A stretch of DNA of 15,756 nucleotides from an uncultured Clostridia bacterium (GTDB lineage Bacteria; Bacillota; Clostridia; Peptostreptococcales; Anaerovoracaceae): contig CAKQVC010000016.1 of the NCBI GenBank assembly GCA_934277655.1, positions 1 to 15,756 on the forward strand, given 5' to 3'. The first letter of the stretch is position 1, and every line of letters starts with the position of its first letter. Positions 383 through 6,375 of this stretch are shown piece after piece. The notes under the pieces were generated by a model. It was not told where the DNA came from and ran no database searches. It saw only the letters and a program-made list of their open reading frames with translations. Position numbers and translations under genes: made by a program.

Positions 383-411
383 TTGAAACTTTTTCTCCAA
401 AAAGGTAAAAT
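383..411 (+). promoter_or_regulatory. Sigma-A-type promoter of the structured RNA
   Basis: TTGAAA (383-388) and TAAAAT (406-411) are separated by exactly 17 bases, close to the consensus housekeeping promoter. The predicted start (about 417-419) coincides with the first base of the first long stem of the RNA at 419. This argues that the RNA is an independent transcript with almost no 5' leader rather than part of the comFC message. Confidence 0.75.
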
Positions 412-417
412 AGATGG

Positions 418-760
418 AGCTGTCCCGGGTCTGTGGTTGCAAGTCCAGGCCAGGTGCGGGCAAAAGGATCCACGTAAGCCGTGAGCAGGAGATCTCGCGG
501 TGATCATGGCGTACCTTAGAAGTAAGTCCTCCGGAAACCGGATAAAGGCAAGTGTGGGGTCAAAGACCAGGTCAGCCGGGCCAGCAGAATAAATCGTCCA
601 TATATGACATCAAGCGTATAAACAGAGGCAGAGCATAACTGTGCATATGTCAGCCGATAAGAACGAAGAATCGGACGGACGCATAATTAAGAAATATCAA
701 TTTCATAAACAATGAAGACAAACAGGATACAATCGCAAATGCAGTGGTTGTATTTTTTTT
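418..760 (+). ncRNA. Large structured noncoding RNA, probable raiA-motif RNA
   Basis: No credible protein gene lies here, but helices are dense. The 5' domain is closed by 419-428 pairing with 576-585 (9 of 10 pairs). It contains 432-436/470-474 with 437-440/460-463 inside, a 7-bp hairpin 479-485/494-500, a GAAG-loop hairpin 515-518/523-526, 530-534/538-542 with an AAA loop, and 558-561/565-568. The 3' domain is closed by 595-599/677-681 and holds 605-610/647-652 and the hairpin 654-658/670-674. A strong promoter precedes it and an intrinsic terminator follows, so the transcript would be about 340 nt with a folded core of about 265 nt. The raiA-motif RNA is known to sit between comFC and raiA in many Bacillota and Actinomycetota, and in Clostridium acetobutylicum its loss impairs sporulation and aggregation. 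The identification here rests on position, size and fold, not on a covariance-model hit. It does not resemble 6S RNA, tmRNA or RNase P RNA. There is no raiA gene downstream. Confidence 0.65.
727..760 (+). terminator. Intrinsic terminator of the structured RNA
   Basis: ATACAATC (727-734) pairs with GGTTGTAT (746-753) as an 8-bp stem with one U-G pair, followed by a run of eight T ending at 760. It lies about 45 bases past the folded core and would end the RNA transcript. Confidence 0.7.
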
Positions 761-921: not shown

Positions 922-1623
922 CTAGAGCACTGCTGTTTCCAATGCCAGCTTCATCATATTCGTGAAAGAATTCTGCCGTTCCTCAACCGTACTCTTGGCT
1001 CCGGTGACAAAGTTATCGCTGATCGTTATCATGGAAAGAGCGTTGACGTGGTTATACGCTGCATTGGTATAAAGGGCTGCCGTTTCCATTTCAACTGCCT
1101 GTACGCCCATCTTCGCCCATTTTTTCCACCAGTCGCCGAATTCATAGAAAACGTCGCAGGTTACTACATTTCCTGCCTTGAACGGAATACCCGTTTCCTG
1201 GCTCGCCTGCAATGCCTTTTTCATGAGATCCCAGCTGGCTGACGGGCTGAACTGTCCGTTCAGGTCAAATGCGTGCTGATAGTTGGAATCTGTGGAAGCT
1301 GCCATGGCAACGAAAACATCGCCCAGGGCAAGATCTTCTGTAAATGCACCGGCAGTACCGATACGGATCAGATTCTGGACCTGATATTCTGTGATCAGCT
1401 CCCAGGAGTAGATCCCCATGGACGGCATACCCATGCCTGTTCCCTGTACAGAAACAGGAACGCCTTTATATGTTCCGGTAAAGCCGTACATATTGCGGAT
1501 TTCCGAATATTGCTTCGGACTTTCTAAAAAATTCTCTGCAATAAATTTTGCTCTCAAAGGATCTCCGGGGAGCAGAACGGTTTCTGCAATCTGTCCTTTG
1601 GATGCGCCAATGTGTAATGACAT
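922..1623 (-). CDS. deoD: Purine nucleoside phosphorylase, DeoD type
   Basis: This 233-residue cytoplasmic enzyme of nucleoside salvage cleaves purine (deoxy)ribonucleosides with phosphate to the free base and (deoxy)ribose 1-phosphate. It is near full family length (E. coli DeoD has 239). The N-terminal LHIGA carries the His that, in the hexameric family, reaches the neighbouring active site. LPGDPLRAKFIAE (residues 18-30) contributes to the phosphate site. VEMETA (177-182) holds the ribose-binding Met-Glu. ISDN (201-204) has the catalytic Asp203 equivalent, followed by EERQNSF (214-220) with the catalytic Arg. The start is supported by GAAAGGAA about eight bases upstream. It lies 41 bases downstream of the MurF-like gene on the same strand with no terminator between, so cotranscription is likely; I see no convincing separate promoter. 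A strong terminator follows. Confidence in the family is high. Confidence 0.95.
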   Translation of the reverse strand: MSLHIGASKGQIAETVLLPGDPLRAKFIAENFLESPKQYSEIRNMYGFTGTYKGVPVSVQGTGMGMPSMGIYSWELITEYQVQNLIRIGTAGAFTEDLALGDVFVAMAASTDSNYQHAFDLNGQFSPSASWDLMKKALQASQETGIPFKAGNVVTCDVFYEFGDWWKKWAKMGVQAVEMETAALYTNAAYNHVNALSMITISDNFVTGAKSTVEERQNSFTNMMKLALETAVL

Positions 1624-1664: not shown

Positions 1665-3764
1665 TTATTTATATTTTAACACAGCTTGAGGGCTGTTTTC
1701 CAGCAATTTTTCTCCCAACTGGTCGGTAGTTTCTGTAAGAAGAACTTCCTGCAGATCCGGGCAGTCAGCGAAAGCTTCGTCCCCGATTGAAAGCAGGCTG
1801 GCTGGACCTTCGAAATGAGTCAGACCGGAACCCTTGAATGCGCCGTCACGGATCCGGACAATGGTTTCAGGCAGGATAACTTCCTTGACGAAAGTCTTTT
1901 CACGGAATGCGGTTTTGCCGATTTTTTCAACAGGCAGATTTTTCGTTACTTCTACTTCATGCAACTCGTCTGTTACTGTCGCTTCAATGTGAGACGGAAC
2001 AGTAACATGCTCATCTGTACCCAAATAGGTCTTTATGGATGCACTGTTTTCAAAAATATAGTATTCGAAGTCGCCCTTGATAACAAGATCAAATTGTTTA
2101 TGGCCGATGGCAGAGCTTTCGTTGAAATCCGTACCGAAGAGTTTATCCATGGTCGCACCCAGGTTGACAGCATGGGAGGCTTTGAACAGAACCAGATCTC
2201 CGGGGGATGCAGCAGCCTTTAAGGCAGCTTCCATCTCTGAGCGGTCTTCGTAATAAACAGCATGAACTCCTGCTTTTAAGGCTTCTTCCACCGCATACTT
2301 CATATTGATGCCGTAGCCGATAAAAAGATCAGACTGGTGTGCAGCAACTTCCTGACCAATCTGGCGATGGGTTTCTTCTGCAAGATCGCCCAGAGAGGTT
2401 ACGTCGCCGAGCACCAGAATCTTTTGATTTCCGTCAGGAACCTGCAGTTCGTCTACAACCTTTAAGGTGTTCCGGACAGCAACCAGAGAGGAGTTGTAAC
2501 AGTCAGCGAAAATACGATACTTCCCGGCTTGGACGATATTTTGACGCATTCCGGATGCACGATAAGTTTCCAGTCCTTCCAGAATCTCTTCCGGCTTGAT
2601 TTTTAATGCGCGTCCTACAGAAAAGGCAACGACTGCATTGAGAACGTTATGCTCGCCGAGCGTGTGGATCCGGGCAGGAAAGCGTTGAGGCTGGCTGCCG
2701 GCAGAAACTGCTTCCGTATCAGTCGGCATATTTTCGCAGATTGTAAAACGATAACCATCATCATCACGCACAATGTCTGCGGCATAATACATGGCAGACG
2801 GGTCTTTCAGGCTGTAAGTAATCGTTTTCTGCGTAAACGGATGCCCCATCAGCACCGGATCATCATAGTTGATGAAAGCAAGACCATCCGGCTTACCGAA
2901 GGTAGAAAGAGACAGCTTATCTTCTTTAATGGCTTCTGCACTGCCGTAGCTTTCAATGTGTGAGTGTCCGATATTGGTATAGACCGCCATATCCACTTCC
3001 AACTGACGGGCAGAGTACTCAATGGTGCGAGGCACGAAAGCACCGACTTCCTGCAGGTAGACATTGGTGGTCCGTCTCAGACTCTGGATATTCCGGGTAA
3101 TGGAGTACATGGAATTGTTATTCCCCTTGGAAATGATCGGGCGTTTATAATGATGCCGAAGGACAGCTTCAATCATTTCTTTTGTCGAAGTTTTGCCCAC
3201 TGAACCGGTAACCGAAATGACTTTTGCCTTGTGGATGGAGCGGATATAGTGGGAAGCCCGGATATATGCCTCGATGATAACGCTCCTTCCGTCCTCTGTT
3301 TTTTCATCGATAACGATGCTGTTTTCAGCATCACATGGGACGCTGGAAATAATACAGAGACAGTGGCTGTCTACAGCCTTTTGAAGTGCGGCGAGAGGAT
3401 CACCGACCGAAAGAGGTGCTTTCTCCCAGAACAGGAAGACGGAGTCTTCCGTCAGACGTCGCGGGTCAGCCGTGAAATCGCTGATTACGTGATCTTTTTT
3501 GTCACTGAATTTATCAGGGAAAGGCAGCCCTGCGATCTCGAAGAAACGAGAAAGTGTCAGCGTTCTTTTCTCTTTATATGCCGCAATCGCAGCTTCTTTG
3601 GCAGCCTGTTTAGCAGCTGCTTTTTCCTCTTCTGTCATGGTAGCAGCGGTATCGGCACTTGTCTGACCGGAAGCTTTTTTATCCGGCTTCCCCGGGGAAG
3701 CCGGTGTTGCAGCGGATTTTAATGGGTCTTTTGGGTCCTTCTTCTTAAATAGTTTTGAAAACAT
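1665..3764 (-). CDS. MurF-like Mur ligase fused to a C-terminal leucine-rich-repeat-like domain
   Basis: This is a 699-residue protein; canonical MurF (UDP-MurNAc-tripeptide:D-Ala-D-Ala ligase, cytoplasmic peptidoglycan synthesis) is about 450. From the N-terminus I see a Lys/Ala-rich, probably helical or disordered stretch (1-65), a substrate-domain-like region (66-180), the ATP loop TGSVGKTST (186-194), NIGHSHIESYGS (264-275) with a Lys at 283 in the position of the carbamylated Lys, and a C-terminal ligase domain to about 544. In that last domain ADCYNSSL (420-427) stands where MurF has D-x-Y-N-A-N-P. Residues 559-699 resemble BspA/LRR_5 repeats (LPETIVRIRDGAFKGSGL, ASLLSIGDEAFADCPDL). I chose ATG 3764 because GGGAGAAG precedes it. 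The in-frame ATG at 3872 would translate through the rpsT terminator and is rejected. The gene lies between rpsT and deoD. It is either a paralogue with altered substrate or this organism's MurF with an added tail. The Mur-ligase fold is certain; the exact substrate is not. Confidence 0.85.
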   Translation of the reverse strand: MFSKLFKKKDPKDPLKSAATPASPGKPDKKASGQTSADTAATMTEEEKAAAKQAAKEAAIAAYKEKRTLTLSRFFEIAGLPFPDKFSDKKDHVISDFTADPRRLTEDSVFLFWEKAPLSVGDPLAALQKAVDSHCLCIISSVPCDAENSIVIDEKTEDGRSVIIEAYIRASHYIRSIHKAKVISVTGSVGKTSTKEMIEAVLRHHYKRPIISKGNNNSMYSITRNIQSLRRTTNVYLQEVGAFVPRTIEYSARQLEVDMAVYTNIGHSHIESYGSAEAIKEDKLSLSTFGKPDGLAFINYDDPVLMGHPFTQKTITYSLKDPSAMYYAADIVRDDDGYRFTICENMPTDTEAVSAGSQPQRFPARIHTLGEHNVLNAVVAFSVGRALKIKPEEILEGLETYRASGMRQNIVQAGKYRIFADCYNSSLVAVRNTLKVVDELQVPDGNQKILVLGDVTSLGDLAEETHRQIGQEVAAHQSDLFIGYGINMKYAVEEALKAGVHAVYYEDRSEMEAALKAAASPGDLVLFKASHAVNLGATMDKLFGTDFNESSAIGHKQFDLVIKGDFEYYIFENSASIKTYLGTDEHVTVPSHIEATVTDELHEVEVTKNLPVEKIGKTAFREKTFVKEVILPETIVRIRDGAFKGSGLTHFEGPASLLSIGDEAFADCPDLQEVLLTETTDQLGEKLLENSPQAVLKYK

Positions 3765-4338: not shown

Positions 4339-5316
4339 ATGAACTATAGAACGGACCTTGCTGTTGAGATGGAAGAACTCCTGGAGAAAGCCAGAAAAGC
4401 GGCGAAGATGCGGGAAGGCGAAACCAGTGGAACGGCGAACCCTCAAGGCTATATCCGAAAACAGTCTCAGCCGGACGAAAATATTTCGGTCATATCGATA
4501 GAGATTACAGATGAAACAGGAGAGAAACTCTTCGCAAAATCCAAAGGTCACTATGTTACGGTAGAAATCAAGGGGATTTTGGAAGAAAAAGACCATATCA
4601 AACAGCGAGCAGCAAGAGTGATCGCAGAGGAACTGAAAAAATTTATTCCATTTCATTATTATCTGAAGGTTCTGGTGGTGGGACTCGGAAACGAAAAAGT
4701 AACGCCGGACAGCCTTGGACCACACACGGTTGACAAAGTGAAAATAACCAGGCATCTATTTTCCATATTCGAATGTGACGGCGACTGGGAAATGGCGAAC
4801 GTGAGTGGATTTAATCCTTCGGTAACAGGTGTGACAGGCATGGAAACTGCGGAACTGATCGAAAAGGCAGTTTCCCTGACAAAGCCGGAGGTTGTCATCG
4901 TCATTGATGCACTGGCAGCAAAGAGCATTGCGAGGATCAGCACAACCGTTCAGATCTGCGATACAGGAATTGAACCGGGAGCAGGAATGGGAAACCGCCG
5001 CAAGGCGATCAATGAGAAGAGCCTGGGATGCAAGGTTATTGCAATTGGTGTTCCAACCGTCATTGATGCGAGGACTCTGATCCTGGATGCGGCAGACCGG
5101 ATAAAGGAAGAACACAGACATCAAGAAGAAAATGGAGCCGAAAGATTTTGTGCGGCAGCCGAGGACTGTCTGGAGGACTGTTTAGAGAGCTATTTAAGAG
5201 AAGAAAATTTTGGCATGATCGTTACTTCCACAGACATTGACCAGATCATCAAGGACTTTGCGGACATTCTTTCAGATGCTATAAATATTACACTCCATCC
5301 AGGCATATACTCTTAA
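4339..5316 (+). CDS. gpr: Germination protease (spore protease GPR)
   Basis: This 325-residue protease degrades small acid-soluble DNA-binding proteins when the spore germinates. It is made in the forespore as a zymogen that cuts its own N-terminus. The RTDLAVE signature (residues 4-10) holds the self-cleavage site. GLGNEKVTPDSLGP (115-128, Asp124) and VIDALAA (188-194, Asp190) are the conserved acidic active-site blocks. STTVQICDTGIEPGAGMGNRRK and VIAIGVPTVIDA are further hallmarks. AGGAAGG at 4324-4330 and an upstream in-frame stop at 4303 with no other start codon between fix the start. By analogy with Bacillus, cleavage after Asp6 would leave a propeptide of only six residues. It is followed 30 bases later by spoIIP, as in Bacillus. 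A sigma-G or sigma-F promoter is expected, but I find no clear match in the A/T-rich gap. Confidence 0.96.
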   Translation: MNYRTDLAVEMEELLEKARKAAKMREGETSGTANPQGYIRKQSQPDENISVISIEITDETGEKLFAKSKGHYVTVEIKGILEEKDHIKQRAARVIAEELKKFIPFHYYLKVLVVGLGNEKVTPDSLGPHTVDKVKITRHLFSIFECDGDWEMANVSGFNPSVTGVTGMETAELIEKAVSLTKPEVVIVIDALAAKSIARISTTVQICDTGIEPGAGMGNRRKAINEKSLGCKVIAIGVPTVIDARTLILDAADRIKEEHRHQEENGAERFCAAAEDCLEDCLESYLREENFGMIVTSTDIDQIIKDFADILSDAINITLHPGIYS

Positions 5317-5346
5317 AGTATAGAAGAAGGAAATGGAGAGAGGACG

Positions 5347-6375
5347 ATGAAAAGAGGTTTTGTGATGGTGCTCCTGTGCGTGTACGTGACGAGTACTGTG
5401 CTTTTTTGTGATATGAAATTTCAGGAAGGAAGCGGTTTTTTTAATGGCGCGCTCGGATATTCCGGAAGGGGTGGAAAGCTGAGCTCGTCGGAACTAGGGG
5501 CTTTATGCATTTCATCCGCATATCCGGAACTGGAATTTGAGGTAGCAGATTCAAGGGACAACGAGGCGCAGGGAGAGCAGGCAGGGGGAGCTGACCAGAA
5601 TCCGACAAGTGCAGATACCAGTGGTGCAGCAGACGGCAAGGATGAGAACAGAAAAGCGCAGGCAGCAGGTAAAGTGGCAGGAAAGGACAGCAGTTCATCA
5701 AAGAAAGGCAATGGGAAGGACAGCACGAAAGTTGTCACCAGTAAAAGTTCTGATACTGAAACCGTGATCTTTGGCAAGGATCCTGCGGTTCTCATCGTAC
5801 ATACCCATGCAACAGAGTCTTATCTTCCATCATCGGGCGGAAATTATCATAAAAAAGCTAAGGAAAATACAGTTCGAGATGTCGGAGATGTTCTGGCAGA
5901 AGCCCTGGAAGAGGAAGGCATCGGTGTGGTGCATGATCAGACCCTTCATGATGACCCATCCTATAATTTGTCCTATAACCGTTCTTACGAGACAACAGAA
6001 AAGCTTCTAAAAAAATATCCTTCCATCGTGTGCGTTATCGACCTGCATCGAGATGCCATTGCGGCGGAAGTTCCGGCAGCGACGGTAGCAGTAAATGGGA
6101 AAACCTGTGCGAAATATTCTTACGTGGTCAGCAACGCAGTAGAGACATATCAGAAAAATCTGAAATTCATCCGTGCCATGAACGAAAATGCATCGAAAGA
6201 TTACAGTGGATTTACAGGAAAGGTTCTTGAACGGGGGTATCGCTATAATCAGGGATTGTCATCAAAATATATGTTGCTGGAAATCGGCTATAACCGAAAC
6301 GATATTACGGAGTGCAGAAACACGGCAGCTATTGTCGGGAAAGTTCTGGCTAAGACGCTGAAACAGGGGGCTTAG
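5347..6375 (+). CDS. spoIIP: Stage II sporulation protein P (engulfment peptidoglycan hydrolase)
   Basis: This 342-residue protein belongs to the SpoIID-SpoIIM-SpoIIP machine that removes septal peptidoglycan and drives engulfment; in Bacillus SpoIIP has amidase and endopeptidase activity. A single hydrophobic N-terminal segment (about residues 4-21) would anchor it in the membrane. A Gly/Ser/Lys/Asp-rich linker (about 65-135) follows. The catalytic domain shows VHTHATESYLP (151-161, zinc-ligand-type His), VIDLHRDA (230-237) and LLEIGYNRN (310-318, conserved Glu). The start has a good AGAGAGG ribosome binding site. It lies directly after gpr and they probably share a transcript. It is within the family's usual length range. 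Confidence 0.95.
   Translation: MKRGFVMVLLCVYVTSTVLFCDMKFQEGSGFFNGALGYSGRGGKLSSSELGALCISSAYPELEFEVADSRDNEAQGEQAGGADQNPTSADTSGAADGKDENRKAQAAGKVAGKDSSSSKKGNGKDSTKVVTSKSSDTETVIFGKDPAVLIVHTHATESYLPSSGGNYHKKAKENTVRDVGDVLAEALEEEGIGVVHDQTLHDDPSYNLSYNRSYETTEKLLKKYPSIVCVIDLHRDAIAAEVPAATVAVNGKTCAKYSYVVSNAVETYQKNLKFIRAMNENASKDYSGFTGKVLERGYRYNQGLSSKYMLLEIGYNRNDITECRNTAAIVGKVLAKTLKQGA

Follow-up and report, generated by a model that had tools for sequence, protein, structure and literature searches.

Genes and features of the locus

The stretch of DNA analysed here in its entirety (hereafter the window; 15,756 nucleotides) begins inside comFC, the C-terminal part of which occupies positions 1–294 of the plus strand and matches Pfam model PF00156 above its cut-off. 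The best NCBIfam match of this fragment, TIGR00201 (comF), scores 55 bits against a whole-protein cut-off of 233.55, because only 97 amino acids of ComFC are encoded in the window. Downstream of comFC on the same strand lies the conserved core of a structured RNA (420–584), in the position given in a preliminary description made from this sequence alone. Correctly identified in that description as well was the next gene, a convergent deoD (922–1623, minus strand; NCBIfam models TIGR00107 and NF004489, both above cut-off), which occupies the place usually taken by raiA/hpf.

Further along, the protein encoded at 1665–3764 (minus strand) resembles the Mur ligase MurF and carries leucine-rich repeats of the BspA type at its C terminus (PF08245, PF02875 and PF13306). 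Its gene sits between deoD and rpsT, and no relatives of it were detected by tblastn among the listed loci or in genome G178, where roughly 150 nt separate deoD from rpsT. The spore genes gpr and spoIIP are found at 4339–6375 (plus strand); thus, the organism may form spores.

The RNA belongs to the raiA-motif family

The covariance model of the raiA-motif RNA (Rfam accession RF03072) matches positions 420–584 of the plus strand over its full length (model positions 1–209 of 209), with a score of 136.1 bits against a gathering threshold of 101.3 bits and an E-value of 4.9e-34. No other Rfam family reaches its gathering threshold in the window, and the match settles the identity of the element in favor of the preliminary description, which had proposed a raiA-motif RNA. 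The RNAs of eight relatives score between 127 and 143 bits with the same model, a range that includes the score of the window. The element at 420–584 is an ordinary-looking, intact-looking copy of the widespread bacterial raiA-motif RNA, also termed ModT. The whole region 418–760 has a predicted fold of -95.7 kcal/mol (z -2.33), which one of 100 shuffled sequences equalled. A comFC match was present on the fetched stretch in 35 of the 37 RNA loci compared (L089–L125), although the two are not always directly adjacent.

Covariation was evaluated in an alignment of 31 sequences, comprising the window and 30 relatives with an RNA of similar length; eight loci with a larger RNA (L097–L104) were excluded. 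Across the 36 tested pairs, which belong to seven helices, standard pairs form in 95.9% of cells as opposed to 81.9% in shuffles, and pairing falls to 25–44% when the partners are slid by one to three columns. Changes on both sides of a pair occur at 27 of the 36 pairs, and on each of five measures all 500 shuffles fell short of the observed value. Compensatory changes, on which the preliminary description had said that its proposal would depend, are thus abundant. Within this alignment, the window RNA is highly conserved.

The core is closed by helix P1 (419–428 with 576–585), the 3' strand of which is supported by both pairing and covariation in the alignment. This is the long-range closure reported in the preliminary description, now recognized as P1 of the RNA family. 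Nine of its ten positions form standard pairs in the window, with one mismatch; among the 30 aligned relatives, all ten pairs form in 26, nine in three, and seven in one. Inside it, a helix of seven pairs (452–458 with 510–516) is paired in 99.5% of cells and shows two-sided change at five of the seven pairs. Judging by its length and position, it probably corresponds to pseudoknot pk-1 in the Clostridium acetobutylicum raiA-motif RNA as solved by cryo-EM, where pk-1 also consists of seven pairs (PMC11751092).

The P5 hairpin (478–501; 478–485 with 494–501) was taken from the minimum-energy fold, and its first five pairs, which were counted in the covariation analysis, are paired in 91.3% of cells. 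P5 as mapped from the cmscan lines was rejected, as the partners assigned in this way do not pair. Both the RF03072 match and the alignment also place a short P6 arm at 528–548 (528–530 with 546–548, and 531–534 with 538–541), which we take to be a small version of the P6–P8 domain, a domain known in two versions (PMC11751092). By itself, the arm (516–560) is no more stable than shuffled sequences (z 0.40; 119 of 200 as good), yet it covaries in the 31-sequence alignment. One of its pairs forms in only 35.5% of cells, probably owing to an alignment slip around a gap, and was kept in the totals. The window and the C. acetobutylicum RNA thus share the same family core, including what appears to be the same seven-pair helix in the place of pk-1, but differ in that the latter carries a multi-stem P6–P8 domain (PMC11751092), whereas the window has only the short P6 arm.

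Predicted promoter, tail and terminators

A sigma-70-like promoter site, TTGAAA-17-TAAAAT, is located at 383–411 (plus strand) and agrees with the consensus at 10 of 12 positions. Five promoter-like sites were seen in the scanned region 200–1700, compared with 2.8 (standard deviation 1.7) in shuffles, and the match by itself is therefore weak, being near chance. Its position is more telling: 8 nt separate the end of the -10 element from the RNA, as in the closest relative found (G178), which has TTGAAA-17-TAGAAT at the equivalent place, and in several others. This recurrence supports the site. A site that fits the promoter with 17-base spacing of the preliminary description is thus present, with its placement, rather than its resemblance to the consensus, carrying the argument. 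Transcription likely starts at about 418–419, at the foot of P1, as predicted from the location of the site.

On the 3' side, a hairpin resembling an intrinsic terminator is found at 724–760 of the plus strand (stem 724–756, with a T run to 760). It contains 13 pairs, three of them G-C, and the segment 720–758 folds with -12.4 kcal/mol (z -5.29). The preliminary description had called an intrinsic terminator here, and both the sequence and the predicted fold agree with that call. A second, stronger hairpin, A/T-rich at either end, lies at 845–885; with -23.0 and -25.7 kcal/mol on the two strands, its predicted structure makes it a probable terminator of the convergent deoD and a probable back-up terminator of the RNA. 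Having promoter-like and terminator-like sites of its own, the sequence fits the independent transcript that had been proposed for it. Terminators were also counted in two groups of relatives, those in which hpf follows the RNA and those in which it does not; the counts differ, but the searched lengths differ too, and no contrast is drawn from them.

Between the core and the first hairpin, the predicted transcript has a 3' tail (586–723). The fold of this tail is marginally better than that of shuffled sequences (586–720; z -1.98, 4 of 200 as good), and blastn at an E-value of 1e-3 detected no relatives of region 585–760 among the relatives' loci searched. The preliminary description had placed a second long-range closure here, 595–599 with 677–681. 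The two segments are indeed complementary and form part of the minimum-energy fold, but with a marginal fold of the tail and no relatives of it in the loci searched, we regard this helix as unsupported rather than disproved.

The junction between the RNA and deoD

In the relatives examined, the two sides of the intergenic region after the RNA belong to separate neighborhoods. The DeoD protein of the window matches those of Clostridium aminobutyricum and Anaerovorax odorimutans at 75% and 73%, respectively, which puts the window close to these species. The closest relative found, G178, belongs to the same bacterial family and matches the window at 82% in DeoD and at 88% over 164 columns in the RNA. 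In this genome, the RNA is preceded by a comFC-like gene and followed by hpf and then cdaA, all on one contig (L138); a different contig carries deoD and rpsT. The G178 RNA locus thus resembles the window in its RNA and in having a similar promoter; unlike the window, where deoD converges on the RNA, it has hpf and cdaA following the RNA, and its P1 is extended by nine pairs rather than one.

Relatives of deoD were compared in the best 80 loci. In 17 of the 30 that were listed (L001–L030 of 80), rpsT and/or lepA share the locus with deoD, as they do in the window. The deoD neighborhood itself varies: within 10 kb of this gene, no other gene of the window turned up in C. aminobutyricum or A. 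odorimutans (L001 and L002). A blastn search that recovers the RNA in all 37 RNA loci detected it in none of the 80 loci with deoD; a word test was insensitive (42 of 79 known RNAs recovered) and was replaced by blastn. The window is thus a junction of two neighborhoods, one with the RNA and the other with deoD, that the examined relatives keep separate; either a rearrangement or a misassembly could have created it.

Starting from what was observed directly, namely the family membership, the covariation, the lack of an hpf match in the window and the gene order of relatives, we consider it highly probable that the locus holds a trans-acting raiA-motif RNA gene with its own promoter and terminator, that the deoD cluster has come, by a rearrangement or an assembly join, to stand in the place of hpf, and that hpf probably resides elsewhere. 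The main competing explanation is that the junction of comFC and the RNA with deoD is an assembly artefact and that hpf/raiA really follows the RNA as usual. The separation of the RNA and hpf from deoD on different contigs of G178 and the lack of the RNA from all 80 deoD loci in the blastn search would both be expected of an artefact. On the other hand, the two convergent units are neatly set apart, each being followed by a terminator-like hairpin of its own; both sides of the junction have the same close relative, G178; and separation of the RNA from hpf recurs in the bacterial family (see below). Thus, we view an artefact as unlikely, albeit as the alternative to be taken most seriously.

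Coupling of the RNA and hpf in relatives

With the hpf frames of eight relatives as queries, tblastn revealed no homologue of raiA/hpf in the 15.8-kb window (best E-value 0.063). The claim of the preliminary description that the RNA stands without a raiA gene therefore holds for this spot, but it is overstated beyond it, because hpf is usual in relatives: it was present in all eight relatives that were searched first and was found in 220 of 247 genomes of the bacterial family. The RNA was found in 224 of these 247 genomes (219 over the cut-off; stricter filters).

The relative position of the two was analysed in 105 genomes that have both an RNA and an hpf place among the best 150 listed for each, a set that includes four RNA places and three hpf places added from the searches of the first relatives. 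In 83 of them, hpf lies within 1 kb downstream of the RNA on the same strand. In the remaining 22, the two are uncoupled: hpf is further downstream in four, convergent in four, and on another contig in 14. Loss of adjacency is thus a recurrent event, and the window is one more case of it.

The sequence that follows uncoupled RNAs varies among relatives. In one genome (G226, locus L143), an open reading frame with CdaA domains begins 41 nt after the RNA, with no hpf between them, and G226 is absent among the genomes with an hpf match, although its assembly may be incomplete. In two others (G044 and G118; loci L144 and L147), an open reading frame begins 34 nt after the RNA in place of hpf; its product resembles a malic enzyme.

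Together with the failure to find a homologue in the window, G226 is also what can be said for a second alternative, namely that raiA/hpf was lost from the whole genome and that the RNA works without the ribosome-hibernation factor. We find this clearly improbable, given that hpf was found in all of the first-searched relatives and in the great majority of the family genomes, and that in the 22 uncoupled genomes it lies elsewhere.

Where the RNA and hpf are neighbors, they do not necessarily form one transcription unit. Among 27 of 29 same-strand loci with a usable gap between the two (40–800 nt; L096 and L099 lack one), an extended -10 element is present in the gap in 16, as opposed to 1.7 expected from shuffles, an excess that points to a separate promoter for hpf in many cases. 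The other 11 loci lack such an element, so co-transcription of the RNA and hpf is possible in some relatives. A probable separate promoter for hpf in relatives and the hairpins in the window both fit a stand-alone RNA.

Mode of action

The reported neighbors of raiA-motif RNAs put the window in context: comFC is a neighbor in 74% of cases and raiA in 66% (PMC11706538). Thus, comFC, present in the window, is a usual but not a required neighbor, and the same holds for raiA/hpf, which is absent. According to the same report, the ModT RNA of Clostridioides difficile has no raiA downstream but a different gene; it acts in trans, as complementation from another locus succeeded, and trans action is also cited there for the C. 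acetobutylicum homologue (PMC11706538). Published work also describes the C. difficile transcript as abundant and stable. The window is similar to the C. difficile case in several respects: the RNA matches RF03072 over its full length, comFC lies upstream, and no raiA follows (PMC11706538). The convergent deoD sets the window apart from both ModT and the RF03072 relatives. The earlier suggestion that the RNA acts in trans rather than as a cis-regulator of raiA agrees with the trans role published for C. difficile (PMC11706538). Because both the uncoupling from raiA and the trans role are already in print, this suggestion was right in kind but not new. What the window adds is one clean case in which a raiA-motif RNA has been kept with what is likely its own promoter and terminator after hpf has gone from the spot, a layout that agrees with the published role (PMC11706538).

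For the trans-acting RNA gene that we favor, the following sequence of events can be proposed. RNA polymerase would start from the promoter at 383–411, so that the transcript begins at the foot of P1, and the transcript would fold into the compact family core (420–584). Transcription would end at the terminator at 724–756, yielding a long form of roughly 340 nt, which may then be trimmed to about 170 nt. In running on to an intrinsic terminator beyond the core, such a transcript would be similar to ModT(L) of C. difficile (PMC11706538). By analogy with the published cases, the RNA would act in trans and not as a switch for a neighboring gene. A rearrangement or an assembly join would have placed the deoD cluster in the usual slot of hpf, and hpf is probably encoded at another site of the genome.

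Could the RNA be a decaying relic, stranded by a rearrangement? It has one mismatch in P1 and, unlike many relatives, neither an extension of this helix nor a U-run beside it. Yet its RF03072 score is well over the cut-off and in the range of the eight relatives (127–143 bits), its conservation in the alignment is high, and its promoter is where relatives have theirs, all of which makes decay very improbable. Even less credible is a cis-acting riboswitch or leader that controls a downstream gene: Rfam types RF03072 as "Cis-reg; riboswitch", and hpf follows the RNA closely on the same strand in most of the 105 genomes, but in the window the next gene is the convergent deoD, the terminator-like hairpins at 724–756 and 845–885 intervene, no same-strand gene lies directly downstream (of the genes tested, gpr at 4339 is the first further along this strand to match a family), and in C. 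difficile complementation worked from another locus (PMC11706538).

Extension of the closing helix in relatives

In the bacterial family to which the window belongs, P1 frequently continues beyond the boundaries of the Rfam model. Allowing at most one mismatch, it runs eight or more pairs further (at most 18) in 61 of 78 loci (L089–L125, L138 and L151–L190), which mostly represent the top of the score list rather than a random sample and include one locus (L169) that failed a conserved-word check and was retained. After removal of loci with similar arms (33 of the 78 were dropped), the extension is present in 31 of 45 loci, compared with 1.2% after exchange of arms among loci. Each of positions 1–12 of the extension is paired in between 32 and 41 of these 45 loci, by several standard pair types. 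These data suggest that, in this bacterial family, the RNA may reach further than the curated Rfam boundaries. A U-run near the end of the helix is present in 35 of the 78 loci.

The window differs from most of its RF03072 relatives in this respect. Its P1 is extended by only one further pair, with no U-run, as opposed to nine further pairs in G178, and its tail has no relatives in the searched loci. Since P1 lacks the extension, the ends of the window RNA may be made differently from those of most relatives. We tentatively propose, as an idea that could well prove wrong, that the bacterial family has two ways of making the ends of this RNA. Most members would use a long P1 (8–18 pairs past the model), and the closing helix, near the end of which about half of the examined loci have a U-run, may itself terminate transcription or act as a stalk for processing; a minority, including the window, would have a short P1, often with a promoter at its foot, and the window RNA, parted from hpf, would end at a separate terminator downstream. 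The extension thereby offers a testable idea of how the ends of this RNA arise. A promoter-like site close to the RNA was seen in 8 of the 17 loci with a short helix and in 5 of the 61 others, counts that come from relatives that are not independent of one another.
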